DNA of 41,601 nucleotides from a virus, in the IMG/VR virus record IMGVR_UViG_3300030104_002752, positions 1 to 41,601 of that record; one strand, written 5' to 3'. Of this stretch, positions 20,135-41,322 are shown piece by piece. The notes beneath the pieces are model-generated. The model saw only the letters and a list, made by a program, of their open reading frames with translations. It did no database searches and was not told the origin of the DNA. The position numbers were made by a program, and so were the translations under genes. The number at the start of each line of letters is the position of its first letter. The first letter of the stretch is position 1.

Positions 20135-21169
20135 TCAGAATATTACGTAGTTGACCCCGACCGAGAAGTCGTGCCATTCCCTGTTCCAGTACTTGTTGTA
20201 TCGTCCTTCTAAGAACCAACCGAAGGATCTATTCAGCTTCCACCCAAAGACTAGCCCTCCGCTGTAGTCCACCCACTGCCCCTCGTTGAGTTGGAAATAA
20301 GAGAACTCTGACCCCGTGTCTAAGTGACGAGGCAAGACATTCCCCCAAGAGTGCAACCAGAAATCTTTGGTGTAGTGATAGTAGTCGAACCCCACCACTA
20401 GAGAGTAGTTCCACTCTGTGTTCAGCTCCCCCCGCTTCCGCTGGACATAGTCCTTCAGCACTTCAGGGATGACAACCTCCCGCCATACATCGAAGCTGCT
20501 AGCTACTACATCCCCGTCGGGGTTCATGTACTCACCCGTAACGAAGTCGTAGCTGTAACCTTCGCTCAAGGCTAGCTGAGTGTAGTGCAAGCTTCCGTTG
20601 GGGAGCTGCCACTGCTTTAGCGGATCATAACCATATGGCTCGGAGATGCGTTGTGCCGCCCCGATATTGAAAGACAGCTTTCCCTTGGAGTTGATGCGCA
20701 GCCTCTGCGAAGCCTCGAGGTAGCTCACGTCGGCAAAGCCATCCTGGACGTACTCTACTTTCCCTACAAACCTCCCCCCGACGTATCTAAGGAAATGGTT
20801 CTGGTCTAGGTACAGCACCCCTTGCTGCCTGCGGTAGTCGCTCTCGAAAAGGAACTCGAAACCTTTGACCGTACCGATCGTAGCAGCGTCAGAGTACGAG
20901 TGCTCCTCACCGTTGTAGAATACGTTGGCTCGGTTCTCATACTTGAACCTAGCAATCTTTCGTATCCCGAGGGTAAGGGAGTAATCGAATGGGGTCTCTA
21001 TAATATCCGTAGACAGCGGTCCATTGAATACAGAGTACGTGTTGTAGTCAGACAGGGAGTTGTTCCCGTTGACAGCAGCGTAGAAAGTAGAAAAGCGAAA
21101 CGCCTTCTTTAGTGTCTGAGCCCCACTCGCTAGTGGGATGCACAGGAGTAGAGCCAGTAGGAGTCTCAT
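20135..21169 (-). CDS. Phage-encoded outer-membrane beta-barrel protein, 344 aa
   Basis: Residues 1-17 are a Sec signal peptide (MRLLLALLLCIPLASGA). The mature chain alternates aromatic and polar residues in many short strands (LRYVGGRFVGKVEYVQ, WNYSLVVGFDYYHYTKDF, YSGGLVFGWKLNRSFGWFLE). It ends DFSVGVNYVIF, the terminal-Phe beta signal recognised by the BAM machinery. No PorP/SprF hallmark (NPAYAG) is seen, so I do not assign it there. Its ATG overlaps the stop of the T9SS protein gene as ATGA, so the two are translationally coupled. It probably sits in the host outer membrane late in infection. Phage-receptor masking is one possible role. Confidence 0.7.
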   Translation of the reverse strand: MRLLLALLLCIPLASGAQTLKKAFRFSTFYAAVNGNNSLSDYNTYSVFNGPLSTDIIETPFDYSLTLGIRKIARFKYENRANVFYNGEEHSYSDAATIGTVKGFEFLFESDYRRQQGVLYLDQNHFLRYVGGRFVGKVEYVQDGFADVSYLEASQRLRINSKGKLSFNIGAAQRISEPYGYDPLKQWQLPNGSLHYTQLALSEGYSYDFVTGEYMNPDGDVVASSFDVWREVVIPEVLKDYVQRKRGELNTEWNYSLVVGFDYYHYTKDFWLHSWGNVLPRHLDTGSEFSYFQLNEGQWVDYSGGLVFGWKLNRSFGWFLEGRYNKYWNREWHDFSVGVNYVIF

Positions 21170-23847
21170 AGCTTAACGATGGTTTGCTTAAACATGCGAT
21201 TGTCAGACACCACAATCAAGTGATACGTACCCACAGGCCACTGCGATGCATCTTGCGTAGCGCTTGAGGATTCTAGCACCAACCGTCCTGTAGCGTCGAA
21301 GACAGTCAACACAAAAGGGTATGGGGAGTCCACATAGAAGTGACGCTCTACAATCGTCGGGCGGATCGTAACCTCCTCTGCTAATTCAGTGACACCCGTA
21401 GGCCAGCCTTGCTGACAGTAATCGTACAGCCCGATACACCCTCCATCCCACTCCGCTTCACAACAGTAGGGGTCTACCTCGATCACCCACCCGTAGCAAG
21501 AGTCGTTCAACCAGTACGGGACACCTGCACCTGTAGCGCAGCCTGCGTCATACAGGCACTCCCCTTCGGTATTAGCCTCGACGCTATAGTTGTACGCTGA
21601 TACATCCATACACCCCACCACCACGGGAATGCAGCTGCCGTTGTCTACGTTAGCCTCCTCATCAAAGTTGAGCGCAGTCGGTTCTGTGCACCCAAACACG
21701 GCAAACGTTAAACAAGAACCATCGTCATAGTCGGCTTGATACCCTTGAGTGTAATACTCGAGATAGCCAGCCTGCATACATCCTGCGGCGTAGTAGCAAC
21801 TGCTATCAGGACTGTTTGCTACTTGGTCGTAGTTCTGCGCCAAAGTATCTAAGCATCCATAGGCAAACTCTTCACAAAGGTTGCCGCAGTATGTCGTCGC
21901 TGTGTATGTATATGGGAATGGGATGATGTTCCACTGAGGTACGTCGATGAGTGTATCTCCCGTTGGCCCCTCAAGCATAAAGCCGCACTGAGCTACAGTA
22001 AACAAAGACTGTGGCGTGGAGAAGAAGAACAGCTCTACCTCTTCGTTAGCAGGGAGGTACAGATCAAAGCTTTCTTCCACTCCGTCTGCTGGCCCCATTT
22101 GATACTGTGGGGAAATCCAATCCCCTTGCTTTACTCCAATCCAACTACCAAACCATCCGTCACCAACGCCGTCAGTAAGAGTCAAGGTGTAAAAACAAGA
22201 GTCGGGTTGCTCCTCTACGTTAGCCTCGGGGTTGTAGTTGTAGTACGCCGTATCTATACAGCCGTATACTACTGGGGTTTCGCAAAGCAAATCGAGAAAC
22301 ACCGTAGCGTCGGGGTTGTACTCTAAATACTCTGGGTCCCCACACCCAACCAAGTCCTCTATGGTTTGGCATACAGGGGAGGAGAACGTCGTGTCTACGT
22401 TGTAACCAAAGTTGACGTTATTTGACGGGAGCGACCATACCTCTTCCCCACAAGCCTCCACTATCACCGTCCCGTCTTCGCCACCCCACTGAGACCCACT
22501 CATCCCGTCACCATACGAGTCCATGACAATGATTTGGATTTGACTCCCTATAGCCACGCAAGTGTTTGTTACGATAGGTATCCCTACGGGGGCACCAGAT
22601 AGATCTCCTGTATTGATTGAGGCTACAATCCCCCCTACGGTCATGTCTATCAACCCCCACGCAGTTTCATCGGGGTAGTTGTCTGGGATTACAGTTACAG
22701 AAAGTTCTGTCTCCGTGATGTCACAGTTGGCGGACTCCACCACGTTACACCCCTGGTTGAAGTTGGCCCAAGGGTTGTAGTTTGTGGCGGTAGAGTCCGT
22801 GCACCCTACTATGGACCCACACGGGAAGCAGCTCTCCCAACAGAAAGCAGGGAGGGTCATTGCCCCCTCTACGTTTAAGGTTCTGTTCACGAACCCCCAG
22901 TCGTCGACCAAGAAGCATGGGGAGTTCAACACCCCCACAGGAGTTTCTTGATACCCCCAGTCGTCTGCCGAAAATTTCCAGAGGTGATTGCCTAGCGGTA
23001 AGTCAATGGTAACCTCCCATATCCCGTCCCCGTCGAGGTCCTGCATTTGATTACAGTCACCACACCATCCGTTCCAACTTGTGTTTAGTTCTGGCGTGAC
23101 GATGCCCTCTGGGTGTGGCCCGTTTAAATCTAGTCTAAACCTTACGCTGTATAGGCAGAAGTCATCAATGACGGCCAAAGGGTCGTAGTTGCTAGCCTCT
23201 TCGTCCATGCACCCAACAACTGGTGGGGGGCAAGGGAGTAGGTTGAACGGGATTTCCATTTGAGCAGAATCGAAATCATACACCCCGATGTCTAGCCCAC
23301 ATCCGTTGGTTAGGGTAAAGAACCCCTCCCCGTATTGGCAGCATATCCCGTCACCAAACTCATCGTATGCTGCGAACGTATACTGTCCAGGGGGCAAGTT
23401 TATCAGAACCTCTTCTGCCACACCTGAGGCGACAACGTTAGTATCAGACAGTATCTCCCATGAGCTTTCGTCAGGGTACTGATCGGAAACGAAGTTTACG
23501 TTTACCCAGCTCTGAGCCTGCAGAGACAAGATAGGGAGGAGCATGCACCACTTGACCTTATTGGCCCAGTACGCGGCACTCATCTTACCCTTGGCGATAT
23601 TGCGGCGGTGGCGGGCCTTGAAGCTTTTGCGCTTGGCTTTCATCCGTGCGCTCTCTCCTGCCTTGGGCTTCCCTGCTGTACTAGCCCCTTTCTCTCCAAA
23701 GCGAATCAACTTCACCTTGTTCCCTTCTTTCGCCAATACAATGTGTGATTTCTTAGGGTGGCTAGGTGTGCCTTTAGCTTTGTTGACCCCCTTTAAACCG
23801 TGCTTTTTTAGCAGGTTTTTTACTCTATTTGAAGTGGAGCTTGCCAT
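21166..23847 (-). CDS. Fusion of a phage RFG/ARH-type domain with a T9SS type-A secreted surface protein, 893 aa
   Basis: Residues 1-100 are a basic phage module with KVKLIRFGEKG, RKSFKARH and AYWANKVKW, a pattern I know from small free-standing marine-phage proteins. From residue 89 (MSAAYWANKVKW) the chain continues into a signal-peptide core CMLLPILSLQAQ (101-112). Beyond it are GDG-type modules (164-168, 444-448, 562-564), at least seven Cys-rich repeats of the GCxDxxAxNYxPxA type (about 212, 348, 501, 529, 664, 719, 745), a starch-binding-like region (NTSWNGWCGDC... DLDGDGIWEV, 255-280) and IEVDPYCCEAEWDGGC. Residues 825-893 match a T9SS type-A sorting domain (VFDATGRLVLES, WPVGTYHLIV, FKQTIVKL). 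Alternative starts at 23583 or 23544 would give a free T9SS protein. Confidence 0.75.
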   Translation of the reverse strand: MASSTSNRVKNLLKKHGLKGVNKAKGTPSHPKKSHIVLAKEGNKVKLIRFGEKGASTAGKPKAGESARMKAKRKSFKARHRRNIAKGKMSAAYWANKVKWCMLLPILSLQAQSWVNVNFVSDQYPDESSWEILSDTNVVASGVAEEVLINLPPGQYTFAAYDEFGDGICCQYGEGFFTLTNGCGLDIGVYDFDSAQMEIPFNLLPCPPPVVGCMDEEASNYDPLAVIDDFCLYSVRFRLDLNGPHPEGIVTPELNTSWNGWCGDCNQMQDLDGDGIWEVTIDLPLGNHLWKFSADDWGYQETPVGVLNSPCFLVDDWGFVNRTLNVEGAMTLPAFCWESCFPCGSIVGCTDSTATNYNPWANFNQGCNVVESANCDITETELSVTVIPDNYPDETAWGLIDMTVGGIVASINTGDLSGAPVGIPIVTNTCVAIGSQIQIIVMDSYGDGMSGSQWGGEDGTVIVEACGEEVWSLPSNNVNFGYNVDTTFSSPVCQTIEDLVGCGDPEYLEYNPDATVFLDLLCETPVVYGCIDTAYYNYNPEANVEEQPDSCFYTLTLTDGVGDGWFGSWIGVKQGDWISPQYQMGPADGVEESFDLYLPANEEVELFFFSTPQSLFTVAQCGFMLEGPTGDTLIDVPQWNIIPFPYTYTATTYCGNLCEEFAYGCLDTLAQNYDQVANSPDSSCYYAAGCMQAGYLEYYTQGYQADYDDGSCLTFAVFGCTEPTALNFDEEANVDNGSCIPVVVGCMDVSAYNYSVEANTEGECLYDAGCATGAGVPYWLNDSCYGWVIEVDPYCCEAEWDGGCIGLYDYCQQGWPTGVTELAEEVTIRPTIVERHFYVDSPYPFVLTVFDATGRLVLESSSATQDASQWPVGTYHLIVVSDNRMFKQTIVKL

Positions 23848-23851
23848 CGCA

Positions 23852-23859
23852 CAAATATA
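23852..23859 (-). promoter_or_regulatory. Bacteroidetes-type -7 box TATATTTG of the envelope cassette
   Basis: TATATTTG, four bases, then the ATG of the 893-aa gene on the minus strand. This is the promoter expected to drive the T9SS protein, beta-barrel, membrane coiled coil and thioredoxin-like genes. No -33 TTTG is seen. Confidence 0.65.
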
Positions 23860-29989: not shown

Positions 29990-32113
29990 TCAACCCCTCA
30001 CCTTATACCGCCTAAAGAACTGCTGCTCCTTGAAGTTAGACTCTTTCTTTTTGACCTTTACTTTCTGTGCTGCTAACAAAGCTAGGCCCGAGCTGATAGT
30101 CAAGTCAAACTTGGTTCTGTTGCTGATGTCATATCCAATCCAATCCTCTAGGGTGCGGTTGAAATACATGCTCCCCACTTCCCCAGTCTCCCTATTGATT
30201 CCGACATGGTCGTGGACGAAAGCCTCTATAGCTTGGGCGTGAGATTGGATTACATCGACCGAGTTAGACGGTATCCCCTTGGTCTTTACGTTGACCTTTG
30301 CGCTAGTGCTCATCAGGTGCTGCGGCCTATCCATCAAGTACCCGTCGTATCCGCGCTGCTCAAAGTACCTGGCTATACCATACTTGTTGTTCTCTATGAG
30401 TATTGGATACCCATAGAAGACCGCCGCCATAAGCACGTCTTCGTAAAAAATGGAAGCCAGCGGTGGACGGGAAGCGTACTCAAGAACAAACATGTTAGCA
30501 GGTACTTCCATATTGAACTTGTTGTATAGATGTAATGCACCCTTAGATCCCCTTCCATCAACAGTAGCATCGAGGTCGTAGCTGTCCACCCCCCCACAAC
30601 CAAGGTGAGGGTGAGGAGCGATTCTCTTGGTTCGGTCATTAGCCTTCTTGTTTCTTAACTCAGGTGGCGGCATCCAAGCCACCTTGAACCTCCCTTTGGC
30701 ATCTGGGGTGAAGACGACCTCGGTATCCTCCACCCCACCTTTCCAAGTGAACTGCCCCGTAACTACGGGGTTGGGGAAGAGGTTGTCGTTGTGATCCACT
30801 TGCTCGTATATCTGACCAATATTAAACAGGCTCCCATCGATACTATCTCGGAAGGCTTCGTCAGTAGTAAACGGGAACTGGCGGATGGTTTCGTTGAGCT
30901 CCGAGGCGTCGTGCTTTAGGCTCTCCCTTTCGTTCTTCAAGAACGTCTTGGCCCCCATATGAACGTACTCCCCATCGATGCCTTCTACGTGTTCTTCTGG
31001 GTCCTCTACTATGGGCCTCCCATAGCAATCGAAAAAACCCTCTAGCGATTCGTAAGCAGGGATAAAAAGCCTGTACAGCCCTGACCTAGTCCTCCCATTC
31101 TTGTTCCTCTCCTGCGGGTCCGAGTCCCCCCATAAATCTTTGTACTCGCTCCCCCCTTTTGCCATGGGGTTTACGGTGCTCCCGACCATGGCCTTCCCCA
31201 CGATTTTTCTTCCTACGATCAAACAGGTCCTCTGAATCCTCCAAGCCTCTCTTATGTCGGTGGGTTTTTCCCATTTCCCCGCTTCGTCTAAATACAGTAA
31301 GTGTAGCTTCTCTCCGTCGTAGGCGTTGTTCGTGGTGTTCTTCCAGTTGATGACCGTATTTAAGGCGTCCCCCACCACAGCCGTCTTGTTGTTCTTCGTG
31401 ATTTTCTTAGAAGGCTCACGGAAGGCTAGCTCCATACGCGGGTTGGTGGTGCCGTCTTGAATGGGCTTGAAGAAGAACGGGTACTTGCGGAACATAGTGA
31501 CCACCTTCTTCATGAAGATATTCTCCTGTGCGTCTTTACCCGTCTTGCTCTGTATCCCAAGCAGCTTGTCCTTAACCTGGCTAGCTTCGTCAACTATGAC
31601 TGAGGAACATATGTTTGTATATCCTGATCTACGGCACTTGGTATATAACTGTCCAATACAACGAGGGTCTGCCTCACACGCAGCCAAATGTAAGAATATA
31701 TCTCTTTGAAACTCAAGGTAGTAGGGGTGGCCGATATCTAGCACCGACCACTGCAGCATCATGTAGTGACGCCCCGTGATGTATGTAGCGTCACCTCGGT
31801 TATAAAACCAAACGCCCTCACGCCGACGGCGAAATTCTTCTTCGATATATGGACGAAACTTTTCTCGAAACTCCCGAGGCATCTCCGCCCACTCATCCAT
31901 AGAACGAATACGCGATATCTCTTTGGGTAGATCAGCTCGCCGCCAGTACTGATCCTTGATGGGTAGATTCTGGTAGAGGATGTCTTTGACTTTAGGGGGC
32001 TTTGGAAGGACAATGAGAATGCCACCGATTTCGATGTGGTCACCATGCGTGCCGTTGGGACATATCGCCACTGCTTTCTCTTCATAGCCTTTGACATCAA
32101 TTAAAACGCTCAT
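29990..32113 (-). CDS. terL: Terminase large subunit, 707 aa
   Basis: The ATPase part shows a divergent Walker A (TKCRRSGYT, residues 158-166) in place of the usual GxxxxGK(S/T), a clear Walker B (LHLLYLDEAG, 270-279) and the coupling motif GSTVN (311-315). The nuclease part begins with an acidic strand GGVDSYD (507-513), followed by YGYPILIENNKYG and PQHLMSTSAKVNVKTKG. The divergent Walker A and overall length are like the large terminases of crAss-like phages. The protein packages DNA into the prohead through the portal. Its start overlaps the stop of the T9SS type-B gene (ATGA), and the portal follows downstream. Confidence 0.88.
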   Translation of the reverse strand: MSVLIDVKGYEEKAVAICPNGTHGDHIEIGGILIVLPKPPKVKDILYQNLPIKDQYWRRADLPKEISRIRSMDEWAEMPREFREKFRPYIEEEFRRRREGVWFYNRGDATYITGRHYMMLQWSVLDIGHPYYLEFQRDIFLHLAACEADPRCIGQLYTKCRRSGYTNICSSVIVDEASQVKDKLLGIQSKTGKDAQENIFMKKVVTMFRKYPFFFKPIQDGTTNPRMELAFREPSKKITKNNKTAVVGDALNTVINWKNTTNNAYDGEKLHLLYLDEAGKWEKPTDIREAWRIQRTCLIVGRKIVGKAMVGSTVNPMAKGGSEYKDLWGDSDPQERNKNGRTRSGLYRLFIPAYESLEGFFDCYGRPIVEDPEEHVEGIDGEYVHMGAKTFLKNERESLKHDASELNETIRQFPFTTDEAFRDSIDGSLFNIGQIYEQVDHNDNLFPNPVVTGQFTWKGGVEDTEVVFTPDAKGRFKVAWMPPPELRNKKANDRTKRIAPHPHLGCGGVDSYDLDATVDGRGSKGALHLYNKFNMEVPANMFVLEYASRPPLASIFYEDVLMAAVFYGYPILIENNKYGIARYFEQRGYDGYLMDRPQHLMSTSAKVNVKTKGIPSNSVDVIQSHAQAIEAFVHDHVGINRETGEVGSMYFNRTLEDWIGYDISNRTKFDLTISSGLALLAAQKVKVKKKESNFKEQQFFRRYKVRG

Positions 32114-33441
32114 CTAAAAATCTGTACTGTCCCCTCTATACTTATCCCTCTACCAGAGTATGAGCTGGCCTTAATCACCCAAGCGTAAACTCCGTCAGGA
32201 ACGTAGTGCCCCCCATCGTTATAGCTCCCGTCCCAACCGTATTCTGGGTCGTCGGTTTGAAAAACTACCCCACCCCACCTGTTGTATATGGTCATGCTCC
32301 AATCATTCCAACAGCTAGGGTCAGACTGTTGAGCGTAGAAGCTATCGTTTACGCCATCGTTGTTTGGGGTAAATACGTTAGGCACGAACACCACCATCTC
32401 TTCGCACTCGTCTACGCCTGGCTGGTCGTCACATGGGAGACCCGTAGCGCAATCCAACCACAGCTCTTGGACTATGTACTCATGTACGGTGTCCAATAGG
32501 TATACATAGGTGGTGTCATAAACATACTCTGTGGATAGCAGGGTATCCAGTATATATACATAGGTTGTGTCGTATATATAGTTATCCACCCAGGTTGTAT
32601 CGTATACATACTCAGTCTCGTAGATTGTATCTGTAAGATACTCAGTTAGATAGAGCGTGTCAGTGGAGTATATATAGGTGGTGTCGTAGAAGTACCAATT
32701 GATTGGGATTGGTATTGTATCGTACTCTACCACAATGACAGTATCTGGGGGGAGCTCGATATAAACCGTGTCTACGATAACCTCAGGTATCGGGCATCCA
32801 CAAGGACCTACCACCACCCAGTTATCCACCCAGTTATCGTCGTCGTATACACCATTCCCCGTGGAAGTGCCATCCCCATTGATGCCTACCTCTGCCCAAC
32901 CCCCGTCTTCGGCATACATAGTGGGGCCGAAAGTAATCTGCCAGATTACAACCTGTACGCTCAGGTCTAAGCTCAACCAATACTCTATACCCCCTTCAAC
33001 ATTGCAGTACAGTTGAGCTGCAAAAGGCCCGTCTACACAATCGCTTTGATACTGATTGTATATAGGGAATGTTATGGTATCCCCAGTGTAGTATGGGGGG
33101 TCGATAGCCTCGTCGTATAGGTTCGTCCAGTTAGTTGCACTTTCCATACTGGTGGCAGAGTACAGCCAGCCAGGGTGATTGGATTCATCAGGTATAGAGA
33201 ACCCAGAGGGGAAGTCCCACCCCTGGTTCATAGCATTGCAATCGCTATCTAAAGCTTGGAACCCAAACTGGATTTCGGCCACCCCATCTGGACCTGCCGT
33301 ACCCCCGCAGTTCTCGGTGTTGTTGAACGCAATCGTTACACTCCCTCCGATGAGGTCTACATCGAGTATCTCTAAGTCACACTGCGAGTACAGTGGAGAG
33401 GTAACCCAAAGTAGTATCAGGAATACTTTACATGTCCGCAT
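32110..33441 (-). CDS. T9SS type-B (CHU_C) secreted surface protein with a YDT-repeat stalk, 443 aa
   Basis: Residues 1-20 are a Sec signal peptide (MRTCKVFLILLWVTSPLYSQ). Residues 21-220 form a Trp/Gly-rich globular part (GWDFPSGFSIPDESNHPGW). Residues 223-320 are a stalk of repeated VYDTTYVY and LDTLxxTEY units. Residues 351-443 are the gliding-motility-associated C-terminal domain (CHU_C, T9SS type B): VFVPNVFTPNNDGVNDSF, IYNRWGGVVF, WDGSYNDGGHYVPDGVYAW. T9SS cargo of this class is moved across the outer membrane and held on the cell surface. Here the gene is overlapped with the terminase start and lies two bases after a small coiled-coil gene, so it is part of the phage packaging operon. 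Confidence 0.85.
   Translation of the reverse strand: MRTCKVFLILLWVTSPLYSQCDLEILDVDLIGGSVTIAFNNTENCGGTAGPDGVAEIQFGFQALDSDCNAMNQGWDFPSGFSIPDESNHPGWLYSATSMESATNWTNLYDEAIDPPYYTGDTITFPIYNQYQSDCVDGPFAAQLYCNVEGGIEYWLSLDLSVQVVIWQITFGPTMYAEDGGWAEVGINGDGTSTGNGVYDDDNWVDNWVVVGPCGCPIPEVIVDTVYIELPPDTVIVVEYDTIPIPINWYFYDTTYIYSTDTLYLTEYLTDTIYETEYVYDTTWVDNYIYDTTYVYILDTLLSTEYVYDTTYVYLLDTVHEYIVQELWLDCATGLPCDDQPGVDECEEMVVFVPNVFTPNNDGVNDSFYAQQSDPSCWNDWSMTIYNRWGGVVFQTDDPEYGWDGSYNDGGHYVPDGVYAWVIKASSYSGRGISIEGTVQIFR
32482..32775 (-). repeat. YDT/DT stalk coding repeat inside the T9SS type-B gene
   Basis: About nine imperfect units of 8-16 residues with the core Y-D-T-x-Y and DTxxxTEY are encoded here. The DNA is visibly repetitive (gtgtcgta and tatataggtggt-like strings). 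Such stalks in Bacteroidetes surface proteins hold a binding domain away from the membrane. Confidence 0.7.
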
Positions 33442-36050: not shown

Positions 36051-36821
36051 TTACTCCCCATTCTGTAACTGAGCTCTTCGAATGTCATCAGCTATAATAG
36101 CCTCTAACTCCGCACGAGTCGGGAAGCGCTCTACCTCCCTACCGCTATCTCGAGAAGTAGTAATCCTCTTAATGAGTTCACCTTCGGGATCGTACTTGGA
36201 CTTGACTTTGTACCGCTCCAATAAAAGACGGGGAAGTAACCTTTGCGGCATATTCAAGTCCTCGCCACCGATTTTTACGGTCTTTCTCTTACCGCCACTT
36301 TGGTCCTGCTTGAACTCTCCTTTGTGCTGACTGTAAGTCTTTTCGAAGTCGTCTTTTTTCTTTTGAAACGAAAAACTGTGCTCCCCCTTTAGCTCTCCAC
36401 TTGGTGTGTAATCGCCTCGGTGCTGCCTGAAAGCAAAGTCTTCATATTGCCGACCTGTAGGAATTCCAATAACTTTTTTTCCTTCTTGCCCCTTCCCCGC
36501 AGTTTTTAAAATCTGGACAAGCTCTTTTAGTGCAAGACCGTGACCTCTAGATTGATATTGACTATAACCGTCATTTCGGTTGGTCGTTATATCCTCCCGA
36601 TAAGGATCGGTGCTCAACCTCTTCTTCATGTAATCAGGGACGCCATCAGCAAGCGTCCTCCTCAAGAACCCACCTGGCCCCCTGCCTCCATTTTGATAGC
36701 GTCGGCGAAGGCCCTGTCTCATCGCTTTCTTTGACTTTCGCTCGTACTTTCGCTGAGATTTTCGTGTTTCTCGCTCCTGTTTACGAAGCATTTTTTTTAC
36801 AGGGTCTTTACGAAGTCTCAT
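36051..36821 (-). CDS. Basic phage protein with YQNGG leader, 256 aa
   Basis: The protein begins with a highly basic stretch (MRLRKDPVKKMLRKQERET... KKAMRQGLRRRYQNGGRGPGG) that carries the YQNGG string also seen near the N-termini of three other proteins here. The rest has a possible zinc-free basic domain with KGKQEGKK-like patches, HRGDYTPSGELKGEHSF and a helical C-terminus (ERFPTRAELEAIIADDIRRA). I recognise no family. High positive charge suggests binding to DNA or packaging with it. It sits between the beta-rich 156-aa gene and the DUF5675-like gene. Confidence 0.55.
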   Translation of the reverse strand: MRLRKDPVKKMLRKQERETRKSQRKYERKSKKAMRQGLRRRYQNGGRGPGGFLRRTLADGVPDYMKKRLSTDPYREDITTNRNDGYSQYQSRGHGLALKELVQILKTAGKGQEGKKVIGIPTGRQYEDFAFRQHRGDYTPSGELKGEHSFSFQKKKDDFEKTYSQHKGEFKQDQSGGKRKTVKIGGEDLNMPQRLLPRLLLERYKVKSKYDPEGELIKRITTSRDSGREVERFPTRAELEAIIADDIRRAQLQNGE

Positions 36822-36828
36822 TTTTTCA

Positions 36829-37299
36829 TCAGCTAGCTACGAAGACCTCTACGCTAACGGAGTTGGTCTTAGGGTCTACGATGATAGACTCTAGATCGTG
36901 CAAAGCAGTGTCTGTAATCGGGGTGGCAGCATCGTCGTCACACGCGATGCCTTCATGCGGTACCCCCATCATGTAACTCTGCCCTGCAGCAAGCAAGATA
37001 CTGGTACTCCCGTCAGCTGCCCCGTCTTCATCGTTAGATATCTGAAGGGAAAGCACGACTTCGTTACTAGAATCTAAGTTCGTTACTCGTATGTACTTGG
37101 TGTCTTCGAGATCGATGGCGTTGTCTGCAGTATGCACTGCCGTCTGGAATGTCGCTACGGTGGTATCGTTATTGGCTGGGCACGTCACCACGCGGGTGTA
37201 TGCCTGTGTTACGCTTGAGATACTGAATGTATGCTCCCCCCCGCGATTCTTCCCGTTCAGCTCTAGCTCTTCAGTCAGAGATACTGTTAGTGTTGCCAT
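36829..37299 (-). CDS. Beta-rich structural protein, 156 aa
   Basis: MATLTVSLTEELELNGKNRG, then VTQAYTRVVTCPAN and DTKYIRVTNLDSSNEVVLSL and GQSYMMGVP form a pattern I recall from marine-phage small structural proteins ('aTLtvt..e...LnG......y.RivT.p...ikYiRiTNld...v.l'). There is no signal peptide. A promoter box ends four bases before the ATG, so this gene starts its own unit. It is likely on the virion surface. The exact place in the particle is unknown. Confidence 0.6.
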   Translation of the reverse strand: MATLTVSLTEELELNGKNRGGEHTFSISSVTQAYTRVVTCPANNDTTVATFQTAVHTADNAIDLEDTKYIRVTNLDSSNEVVLSLQISNDEDGAADGSTSILLAAGQSYMMGVPHEGIACDDDAATPITDTALHDLESIIVDPKTNSVSVEVFVAS

Positions 37300-37303
37300 A
37301 CTA

Positions 37304-37311
37304 CAAATATA
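37304..37311 (-). promoter_or_regulatory. Bacteroidetes-type -7 box TATATTTG
   Basis: TATATTTG on the minus strand, TAGT, then the ATG of the 156-aa gene. It sits just after the stop of the small 45-aa gene. No TTTG at the -33 region is visible. Confidence 0.65.
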
Positions 37312-37317
37312 ATATGA

Positions 37318-37455
37318 TTACCCGCTGCAGGATTCGCAGTCCTCTGGGGAGTCTATGTTACAAGATATCTCCCCGCTCTTTATCTTCCCCGCTGTTTCTT
37401 CGAGTTTCTTCTTGTCTAGGAATGTCGGGGTGTCCCAATCTTCTTCTTCGTACAT
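37318..37455 (-). CDS. Short acidic Cys-containing protein, 45 aa
   Basis: A short open frame with ATG at 37455, one base after the previous gene's stop, and TAA at 37318. The protein starts MYEEEDWDTPTFLDKKKLEE and ends CNIDSPEDCESCSG. The acidic N-terminus and 'DWDTPxFLxKK' pattern are reminiscent of very small marine-phage proteins. Three Cys residues near the end (C..ED-C-ES-C) could bind a metal. The tight spacing with both neighbours and the sensible composition support a real gene. It is too short for automatic callers with a 60-residue cutoff. Confidence 0.6.
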   Translation of the reverse strand: MYEEEDWDTPTFLDKKKLEETAGKIKSGEISCNIDSPEDCESCSG

Positions 37456-37456
37456 G

Positions 37457-39778
37457 TTACTTTTTTAGGATTCTAAACTTACCACCGCTCTTATAGGCAC
37501 GAATCTCCCCTACACCTTCTCCGAGGCGAGCGGGGATATCTACCTCCCACCAACTGTTGCCGACATCGTCAGTGACTTTGGTGGCATCCAACCCGTGCTT
37601 CTTCAAAGCTTTCGGGAGGCGGTCGTAACCTTTCATAATGCCTTGAGTGGCTTGGGTGGAGGCGTTGACTCGAGCGAGGTGTTCTTTCTGACTCTTTATC
37701 CTCTCTATGTACGTGCTGTACGTGTGAATATTTGTTTTGATTGAGGTGGCCCTAGCTTGTACTGCTTGTTTAAATCCTGGTGCGTCAACATTTAGCTTCT
37801 GACCATCAGCCGCAGCTTGATCTTTAAATTCCTTATAGGCTAGCTTCAGGGCGTCGTTATCAAACTTTTCTACGGCAATCTTATTGTACTGTATTACAGG
37901 ATCAGAATCCAAGTCTCTCGATGCGCGTGCTCTTGTCCTAGAAGCCCTCACCCTTCCTAAGTAATCAAGTGTTTCTCCGTAATCTCTGTTCTTCAGACCC
38001 ATCCCCTCAACTCGATTGGCAAGGCGAGTCGGTACGGAGTTCCCAAACATATCACGCTCTGCCATCAAGCCGTCTAACGCACGCTGCTCAGTATCTAGGT
38101 CTCTTTCGGCACGCTGCACATTCCTTTGAATATCCCCGTACCCTTGAATCTTGCTTGTCGTCTCCCCCGTCGGGAAGCGGAGCTTGTCTGCCCCCTTCGC
38201 TTCTCGCTCTAGGATGTGAGAGATAAGGAACTGGTCTTGGTTCTTGATGAGGCTAGCTTGCTTAGGATTCGGACCACCGCGATATCCACCCTCTAGGGCT
38301 TGGATGTAGCGCTTGTGCTCATCCATGAAACTGATTAGCTGCTCAGTGGGGGCCATGAAGTCTGCCTCCCTCTTCGCTCTAGCCATAGGGGTGAGGGCCT
38401 CTAAATCCGTTTCCCTCAACACCGTTATATCATCGGCTCCTAGAGCCTCCGATTTATTGATTGCGCTTATTCCTCTAGGGTCATCCAAGGAGCCCCTACC
38501 TGTAGGTAGACCCTCAGCACCGTATACTTTTTGTGGGTTGTACGGGGCTCCAGCGCGAACTTCCGCTAGATGTTTTTCGGCTGCTTCTAGTTGAATCCTA
38601 GCGGTTTCTAGTTGAGCGTCAACATCAACGGGCTTGCTGACATCCAACGCCACCGTCTTCTGCCCTTTAGGTCCACGCGCTTGCAGTGGGTCGGCCTGCA
38701 GCTCAGAGATGTACAGCACCCCTCGTTCGTCAGGGCGCTCGAAGGTGCGGTAGTGCCCGATGACGTCCTCCCCAAAGTGACCGTACTCAGTAGACTGCAG
38801 CTCAGGGTCTCTGGTGCGGATAAGGTTGGTACGAGCCTCTAGACCCTGTTTCTCTAACGAAGGAATTGCATCAAACGAGTATCCTAGATTGCCCAATCCG
38901 TAGTCTGCGTATTGGTTACTCTCCTCGACACTGAAAGGACGATTCATATTCCCCATACCTGCCCGCTTGAAGTTCAGGTAGTCAATCTTATCAGGGAGCG
39001 GCGCGCCAGATTCTAGGCCCAATGCTTCTCCCTGCTGGACACGAGACTTGAACAGGGCGTCTCGCAGAGCCTCCCGCTCTGCGGCAGAGATATCCTTGCT
39101 GTTGATAAGGTTTTCAATCTGACTCACTTGAACCATCCCGTCCTTCCCTACCGCGTTTTCAAGTTTGCTCCCTGACATAAGAGACGGGAGTTGGCGAACG
39201 TTCATTGGGTTTGGATTGGCATCACCCATTGTAAAATCTACAGCCTCTGGATACGCCTCCTCATGAGCTTGAGTTAGGTTCTGCAAGACAGCCTCTCTGT
39301 TCTCAGTAGGCAGTTCACGGAATTCTCTCTTGGGTAGTTTCGCGGGGAACTTCTTCACGGCCCTCCATGCGGACTTGAGCGGCTTCTCAAGTATGTTCGG
39401 GATGAGGTACCCCGCCGCCGTCATACCAGCGAACATAGCTGGGTCTTGCTCCTCCCCGTAGAAGTCCTCACCTGTAGCGGCTACTTTAGCTAGCTCGGCA
39501 GAATCAATCAACACGTCTATACCAGGTACAAACCTAGCCATCTCAAACATGCTGTCATCGACAGTCTCTGCTGTCATACGGTCTTGCTCCTGCTTGATGG
39601 TACGGAACGGGGCGTCCCCACCAGTCAACCTGAACTGATTGTCAGGTTGCAGTGCCCGCATCAAAGCCTCTTGCGGGGTGATAGTACCTTGTGGGGGGTC
39701 TCCGACGCCACCACCGTTCTGGTACATGCGCCGCTTCTTCGGGAGCATGCCTTTGGCTCTACGCTTTTTGCTCTTCAT
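37457..39778 (-). CDS. Large virion-type protein with YQNGG leader, 773 aa
   Basis: The protein starts MKSKKRRAKGMLPKKRRMYQNGGG, a basic leader with YQNGG. Residues near 60-130 include ARFVPGIDVLIDSAELAKVAA and a hydrophobic helix AGMTAAGYLIPNI, as seen in ejected internal proteins. The middle has FGEDVIGHYRTF and GVLYISELQADPLQ, like the 'nvLaHvR...(I/L)eElQSDw' motif of large phage polyvalent-type proteins. Long helical segments follow (EQLISFMDEHKRYIQALEGG; RDLDTEQRALDGLMAERDMF). It ends GGKFRILKK. A virion protein ejected or carried with DNA is plausible. The function is unknown. Confidence 0.55.
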   Translation of the reverse strand: MKSKKRRAKGMLPKKRRMYQNGGGVGDPPQGTITPQEALMRALQPDNQFRLTGGDAPFRTIKQEQDRMTAETVDDSMFEMARFVPGIDVLIDSAELAKVAATGEDFYGEEQDPAMFAGMTAAGYLIPNILEKPLKSAWRAVKKFPAKLPKREFRELPTENREAVLQNLTQAHEEAYPEAVDFTMGDANPNPMNVRQLPSLMSGSKLENAVGKDGMVQVSQIENLINSKDISAAEREALRDALFKSRVQQGEALGLESGAPLPDKIDYLNFKRAGMGNMNRPFSVEESNQYADYGLGNLGYSFDAIPSLEKQGLEARTNLIRTRDPELQSTEYGHFGEDVIGHYRTFERPDERGVLYISELQADPLQARGPKGQKTVALDVSKPVDVDAQLETARIQLEAAEKHLAEVRAGAPYNPQKVYGAEGLPTGRGSLDDPRGISAINKSEALGADDITVLRETDLEALTPMARAKREADFMAPTEQLISFMDEHKRYIQALEGGYRGGPNPKQASLIKNQDQFLISHILEREAKGADKLRFPTGETTSKIQGYGDIQRNVQRAERDLDTEQRALDGLMAERDMFGNSVPTRLANRVEGMGLKNRDYGETLDYLGRVRASRTRARASRDLDSDPVIQYNKIAVEKFDNDALKLAYKEFKDQAAADGQKLNVDAPGFKQAVQARATSIKTNIHTYSTYIERIKSQKEHLARVNASTQATQGIMKGYDRLPKALKKHGLDATKVTDDVGNSWWEVDIPARLGEGVGEIRAYKSGGKFRILKK

Positions 39779-40554
39779 AGCTGTCCTCGGTCTCTCATAG
39801 ACAGTGCGATGGCTACAGCTTGATCGTGTGGTCGACCTTCTTTCTTCAACACTTTGATTTTCTTACCAATCCTCCCTCCGTTTTGTCTCGAGTTCATGAT
39901 TGTTTGCACCATCTCATCTCCCATATCAACAGTCCTTCTTGTGTTGTCAAAATCGAATCTATCTGCGGCTCTCATGCTTTGAGCAAAGCTTTCTCTGTTC
40001 CCTTTTTTCTCTACTCCTTTATGACCTTGCAACCACAAATCAGCCAACGGTAGTTTTCCTGATACATAGTCAGATAGTTTAGCAGGACCTTCAATCAGAT
40101 TTGCATAGAACAAAGCCCTTTGCTGATTCTCATTGAGCTCGTCTGCATTTTCAGCCTCTAATATCTCAGGGTCTAGAGCTACATCGCCTAAAGCGCCTTG
40201 AACTGACTCTAAGATGTTCTTGTATCTTTTTTTTGCAGTGTCGAAAGACCCTGACGCAGTGTTGTCTTCGAACTGAAACATCCCTCTGCCTGGGCCTCGA
40301 CCTCCACCACTAGATATCTGTCTTGCTGTCGGGCTCATCCTTTGTTGCGGACCCGATTCATGGAATGCAATCCTGTTTGCTGCATTTCTCCAAAGACTAG
40401 CGTCGCCACCTCTAGAAGAAACAAGGTAGTTCTCGAGTATGTCAGAGTCCATGAATGGGACTCCGCTAGGGAAATTCTCTGACATGACAGGGAACAATAG
40501 ACTTGATGTCTGGTCACCCCCTGGACGACCCCCGTTCTGATACTTCAGTCTCAT
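39775..40554 (-). CDS. Lysozyme/transglycosylase-like virion protein with YQNGG leader, 259 aa
   Basis: Residues 1-10 are MRLKYQNGGR. The part around residues 58-96 (AANRIAFHESGPQQRMS... GRGMFQFE) fits a lysozyme-like fold: a catalytic Glu candidate E66 in HESG, then the GxxxFQFE turn at 89-96, followed by LADLWLQGHKG. The C-terminal end has RQNGGRIGKKIKVLKKEGRP and DQAVAIALSMRDRG, a motif common at the ends of small phage proteins. The protein could open peptidoglycan during DNA entry, or lyse cells. It overlaps the next gene as ATGA and the previous as TAATG. Confidence 0.5.
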   Translation of the reverse strand: MRLKYQNGGRPGGDQTSSLLFPVMSENFPSGVPFMDSDILENYLVSSRGGDASLWRNAANRIAFHESGPQQRMSPTARQISSGGGRGPGRGMFQFEDNTASGSFDTAKKRYKNILESVQGALGDVALDPEILEAENADELNENQQRALFYANLIEGPAKLSDYVSGKLPLADLWLQGHKGVEKKGNRESFAQSMRAADRFDFDNTRRTVDMGDEMVQTIMNSRQNGGRIGKKIKVLKKEGRPHDQAVAIALSMRDRGQL

Positions 40555-41204
40555 TATTTCTTTATTCTACCACCCTTGTTGTTCATGTTGATTGGACCCA
40601 TAGGGCCATCTCTGAAAGGCGATGCGGGATTGACAATGTCTTGAAGCCGATCCTCCGATTCTAATATGTTTAGTATTCTGTCTTGATTTTTAGTGGAAGC
40701 TGCAAGCTCTGCTTCATATTGAGCCCTACTGCCGTTGTCCATCATGTAGCGCTGAATATCTTTTTCTGACATACCCTTCTTTCTTAGCTTGTCAACAGTA
40801 CCGTCAAAGAAGAACTGTTCGCCTCCTGATTTGGGTCGGTACTCTAAAGCAAGCTTATTCGTTCGGGCTTTGTCCATCATTGCCGCCGTTCTTTTTTTCT
40901 GAGCCGCTTGTATTTCGGGATTAGTTACCCTACCAAACTGATCATACATGAGTTTTGGTTTAGCAGCCTTCTTCCCCAACCCCAAGTACTTCCCAATAGC
41001 TTTAGCTGCAGGGGACAGAGCCCTAGCCAACGGGAAAGCCCCCAAGATGTAATCTTCTGGACCAAACGTGTTCTCTACAGCGCCACTCCCACCACGTTCA
41101 TACGGGGATAGGGACATGTAATCCTCCATAGACGAGTACTGAGGGATGGCATCTCTGTTCGAAGGAGAAGGTCTCCCCCCATTCTGGTACTTCTTGAGTC
41201 TCAT
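40554..41204 (-). CDS. Virion-type protein with YQNGG leader, 216 aa
   Basis: I use the ATG at 41204, which gives MRLKKYQNGGRPSPS; the TTG at 41222 would add six residues but lacks the shared leader. The N-terminus is basic and matches the opening of the 259-aa protein (MRLKYQNGGRP). Residues 55-75 contain a hydrophobic stretch (ILGAFPLARALSPAAKAIGKY). The remainder is helical and charged, and the C-terminus is NMNNKGGRIKK, again basic with GG. It is the first gene of the long leftward run, directly after the non-coding leader. I recognise no named family. Confidence 0.55.
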   Translation of the reverse strand: MRLKKYQNGGRPSPSNRDAIPQYSSMEDYMSLSPYERGGSGAVENTFGPEDYILGAFPLARALSPAAKAIGKYLGLGKKAAKPKLMYDQFGRVTNPEIQAAQKKRTAAMMDKARTNKLALEYRPKSGGEQFFFDGTVDKLRKKGMSEKDIQRYMMDNGSRAQYEAELAASTKNQDRILNILESEDRLQDIVNPASPFRDGPMGPINMNNKGGRIKK

Positions 41205-41322
41205 ATTGCTAAGATAATGCAACTATCTGTCTCTCAACTGCATACAAAGCAAATCTCTCAACAAGACACAGCATCCCCGTATTCACCTACTAACTGAGTA
41301 ACACAGTCAACACTGTATAGCC

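Follow-up and report, generated by a model that had tools for sequence, protein, structure and literature searches.

Phage-encoded cargo of the T9SS has rarely been described. The closest cases are the T9SS cargo encoded by Cryophage (PMC7468147) and the crAss-BACON ORF with its T9SS sorting domain (PMC6949934). The window analysed here, a whole virus record of 41,601 bases, points to an entire family of this kind in phages of marine Bacteroidota, part of which carries a fused phage module at the N-terminus. Its ORF 21166-23847(-) encodes 893 residues in the unbroken order of a 100-residue basic module, a signal-peptide core (CMLLPILSLQA, followed by Q), a Cys-rich protein and a T9SS type-A-like C-terminal domain (Table 1). 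The gene fusion seen in this ORF is authentic and conserved among podoviruses of marine Bacteroidota, under selection and recurrently recombined. The proposal of an earlier sequence-only reading that a phage module is joined in frame before a T9SS-type secreted protein is thus borne out, and its coordinates and codons at the junction were correct when ORF and junction were read again.

Table 1. Features of the fusion gene and its immediate surroundings, in positions of the window.
Feature	Position	Strand	Remark
Bacteroidetes -7 promoter box TATATTTG	23852..23859	-	4 nt before module ATG
Module, residues 1-100 (phrog_7595)	23548..23847	-	profile match E 2e-39; AlphaFold2 model
M89, putative internal start (KGK-M-SAAYWANKVKW)	23581..23583	-	
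Junction codon C101 (TGC)	23545..23547	-	relatives: TGT/TTC if fused, stop if stand-alone
Signal-peptide hydrophobic and cleavage region CMLLPILSLQA, residues 101-111	23515..23547	-	predicted cut before Q112; Q-rule
Mature Cys-rich cargo, residues 112-893 (predicted)	21169..23514	-	
T9SS type-A-like C-terminal domain, without PNP motif	21169..21423	-	TIGR04183 21.5 bits; HMM of unfused relatives ~57 bits
Next gene, exported outer-membrane-barrel-like protein (predicted)	20135..21169	-	4-nt overlap with fusion gene

At the junction, the bases AAG TGG TGC ATG lead from the module (...AAYWANKVKW) via C101 to M102 and LLPILSLQAQ; the third base of codon 101 is 23545 (G on the plus strand) and M102 begins at 23544. 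Past the module, the frame stays open through C101 into LLPILSLQAQSW and then into the Cys-rich protein. Residues 7-100 match positions 3-96 of the 96-position phrog_7595 profile (94 residues, E 2e-39). The stand-alone form of phrog_7595 ends in ...KW, and in the window the frame is open after W100; the window has phrog_7595 as a domain, not as a stand-alone member. AlphaFold2 models the module as a helix, a beta-hairpin and two helices (pLDDT 82), and a Foldseek search of this model against the PDB gave no match with E <= 0.001, while the model of the full-length fusion protein was poor (pLDDT 37) and unfit for structure search. The module also matches a stretch of phrog_220, a minor head protein and DNA pilot, and forms the N-terminal domain of the large phage proteins L209, L210, L264, L297 and L322, where it always ends in ...KW. 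In these five proteins, the module is directly followed by sequence of the A(D/E)GG or NEGG type. Given its basic character and the match to a DNA-pilot family, one might guess at a nucleic-acid or virion role for the module. Hydrophobic tails behind the module in L251, L254, L317, L364 and L424 were rejected as signal-peptide fusions, as an HNH-like ORF overlaps them in another frame; the scan that yielded many of these tailed modules favoured hydrophobic codons, and the tails are left uncounted.

Seven close relatives (L082-L088) came from a search with the cargo, one more (L118) from a pattern search. The in-frame fusion is present in nine IMG/VR records from different samples, the window and eight besides it, which correspond to seven distinct fused sequences, not nine, because some of the records are near-identical pairs (L082/L083 and L086/L088). 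The junction is open in all 8 other module-bearing records of the cargo clade. The fused records have TGC, TGT or TTC as their junction codon, in no case a stop, followed by ATG, TTG or CTA. The ATG at 23544, from which translation had been suggested to restart, is accordingly no conserved start, because fused relatives have TTG or CTA in its place. A second copy of the module was found in none of the fused records, which may be fragments. Every scored stand-alone module (78/78) ends in ...W, followed by TAA, TGA or TAG, a contrast to the open junction of the fused records that goes beyond chance; prevalence figures are to be read as "at least", two pattern scans and the module search listing part of the matches.

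Across wider searches, three arrangements were found, namely cargo alone, module and cargo overlapping, and module and cargo fused. Cargo alone with its own ordinary signal peptide occurs in dozens of records, and the ordinary signal peptides of unfused relatives end just ahead of the same SW residues. Record L527, which has no module, is 89% identical over cargo query residues 6-241, and its own start reads MNRLLTLLLLLPFSMMAQGSWVNVNF. The cargo tree unites L527 and the fused rows in a single group (89/78) and places L527 within it (97/83), so that the fusion was apparently lost once. The overlapping type comprises six records (L621/L065, L622, L623, L626, L627 and L628), in which the module lies directly upstream and the cargo starts in another frame, at AA[ATG]GTAA. 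Like the fusion, these pairs place the module before the same cargo family and share its promoter box ahead of the module ATG; unlike it, they consist of two genes in different frames. They fall elsewhere in the cargo tree and also apart from the fused rows in the module tree, so that the trees lend no support to the overlapping type as direct ancestor of the fusion; it is better taken as a parallel. The simplest reading of the trees would be two independent module-cargo associations.

Separate-gene states, anticipated by the sequence-only reading, hence do exist among relatives, but within this clade the same long fusion with a conserved linker is found throughout the module-bearing records, a state which that reading had itself named as speaking against its one-base idea. 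Nor do the separate-gene relatives point to a simple stop loss: in the adjacent but separate pairs, the module stop lies within an overlap with the cargo start, which is in a different frame, and the fusion would consequently require a shift of frame or a joint made by recombination.

Among the fused sequences, dN/dS amounts to 0.067 for residues 1-88, 0.028 for residues 89-112 and 0.071-0.091 for the cargo, at a pS of about 0.7 (0.71 for residues 89-112 as compared to 0.72 for the module); the C-terminal domain is full length and constrained (dN/dS 0.109). The fusion is under purifying selection. Stand-alone modules are saturated and hence have no dN/dS value. At the nucleotide level, the window is 90% identical to L085 in the module and 70% in the initial stretch of the cargo, and the corresponding values for L082 are 73% and 88%. 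L086 and L118 are 76% identical in the module and 96% in that stretch of the cargo, with the switch located at the junction, and the last 80 residues of L527 are 25-29% identical to those of the fused clade. Recombination shuffles module and cargo, and the module and the C-terminal domain behave like exchangeable ends.

A putative Sec core and the site of A followed by Q were seen by inspection in the fused records and are conserved, with L103 and P105-W114 of the core invariant among the fused sequences. Core hydrophobicity is 2.4-2.7 in the fused sequences (unfused relatives: mean 2.9, minimum 2.06), and the hydrophobic run of 10 residues lies at the short end (unfused: mean 15, minimum 10). 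Directly after the predicted cut, 74 of 77 unfused relatives have a Q, as do the fused ones, and A then Q fits the Bacteroidetes Q-rule (PMC5837995). At the other end of the protein, the cargo of the window reaches 21.5 bits with TIGR04183, for which the curated cut-off is 23; the fused clade scores 18-22 bits and unfused relatives 26-38 bits. An HMM built from 54 unfused C-terminal domains matches the fused domain over its full length (~57 bits), which argues that the latter is a diverged member and not an unrelated end. The PNP motif that opens the C-terminal domain is absent in the fused clade, where RPT is found, and present in L527, L533 and L534.

As for the genomic setting, the relatives of the P22-like portal belong to phages of Flavobacterium, Cellulophaga, Tenacibaculum and Maribacter. 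The cargo is followed by outer-membrane-barrel-like, small membrane and thioredoxin-like proteins, which are syntenic in fused and unfused relatives, and the outer-membrane-barrel-like protein has at least 429 related stretches in IMG/VR. Neither this protein nor the cargo gave a match to cultured phages; domains resembling the N-terminal part of the cargo occur in many Flavobacteriales genomes. Elsewhere in the window, adjoining a terminase-like gene, 32110-33441(-) encodes a second protein predicted to be exported, with a CHU_C / T9SS type B domain (PF13585, E 5e-18; TIGR04131 above cut-off), and several ORFs in 36051-41222(-) have a common N-terminal motif of the YQNGG(R/G) type.

The motif TAHHTTTG-N4-ATG is found at the module in all nine fused and all six overlapping records. 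In F. johnsoniae, the -7 box occupies -12 to -5 (PMC6847099; likewise PMC9723704), and because the spacing here matches, transcription is predicted to begin (+1) with the A of the module ATG. The transcript is thus predicted to be leaderless or nearly so, with +1 at M1; since leaderless mRNAs make up just 5.5% in F. psychrophilum (PMC9723704), such a start of the fusion transcript remains a prediction. In the same window, TANNTTTG lies four or five bases ahead of the genes at 2917, 11275, 13477 and 37299, which are possibly leaderless as well.

The following course is our inference, from the beginning of the transcript through export, cleavage and use of the T9SS to what becomes of the module. 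A nearly leaderless transcript from the module ATG would give one 893-residue preprotein, in which the module would serve as a long basic cytoplasmic N-region and the segment past W100 would provide a Sec signal peptide with its hydrophobic core and its site of cleavage. The cut by signal peptidase I would fall between A111 and Q112, so that the Cys-rich cargo would move on to the periplasm and, via its C-terminal domain, by the host T9SS to the cell surface; the module and a short membrane segment would stay on the cytoplasmic side. We regard this route of a single preprotein as rather probable. A bolder version, which we advance tentatively, is that of a two-compartment polyprotein, in which host signal peptidase I would part two phage proteins, one functional in the cytoplasm and the other exported to the surface; polyprotein processing might then replace the translational overlap of the sister phages.

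Other explanations are less probable. Two products could arise from the one frame, the full ORF or the module from M1 and a secreted protein from an internal start at M89, which would provide the latter with a 23-residue signal peptide of normal shape (MSAAYWANKVKWCMLLPILSLQA). M89 is kept in the nine fused records, but its presence is uninformative because stand-alone modules, too, usually have M in this position (24 of 24 in one set, most in another); moreover, no promoter box was found before M89, and no hidden ribosome site shows in its vicinity, as synonymous change is unreduced and as high as in the module. We consider such a start unlikely. Alternatively, the module might act as an N-terminal tag and direct its partner to another destination, for example the virion, with the fused clade off the T9SS route. 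The same module with the same end residue heads other large phage proteins, it matches the phrog_220 stretch, and the C-terminal domain of the fused clade has diverged, all of which would suit a tag; yet the invariance of the signal-peptide core (dN/dS 0.028) and the full length and constraint of the C-terminal domain (dN/dS 0.109) leave this explanation distinctly doubtful.

The fusion could also be a recent, non-functional read-through without consequence, and L527, which lies inside the fused clade without module and with an ordinary signal peptide, does indicate that the fusion is dispensable; across the joint, however, synonymous change is saturated and amino-acid change low in seven sequences, making a mere read-through very improbable. 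The one-base sequencing or assembly error at 23545 that had been suspected to join two genes would only require a single change to yield TGA, the kind of codon with which the stand-alone modules all stop there. To this we assign next to no probability, given nine records from different samples and seven distinct sequences with three junction codons (TGC, TGT or TTC, never TGA) and no conserved restart codon.

With its separate, overlapping and fused forms as well as recombinants, the family offers a natural experiment on the merging of two neighbouring genes into a single protein. It likewise tests which length of N-region is tolerated by a Bacteroidota Sec signal, and if the module works after cleavage, a host signal peptidase would be processing a phage polyprotein. 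Cryophage and crAss-BACON are alike in that the protein encoded by a phage gene bears a T9SS sorting domain and would go through the T9SS of the host. In contrast, a fusion to an N-terminal module is not described in the available portions of these reports, and, measured against them, the family presented here is widespread in IMG/VR and the C-terminal domain of its fused clade has diverged. The stand-alone phrog_7595 protein resembles the module over nearly its full length and down to the same terminal W, but has a gene of its own with a stop after this residue, whereas here the frame continues into a protein predicted to be exported. A cytoplasmic N-terminal part is also known from long signal peptides, such as the extended ones of autotransporters and the stable ones of viruses. 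These would act alike, a cleavable Sec core being preceded by a long N-region; the likeness drawn here is one of mode. Phage-encoded T9SS cargo has thus already been reported, and what is new is the fusion of the module to it together with its overlapping counterpart.
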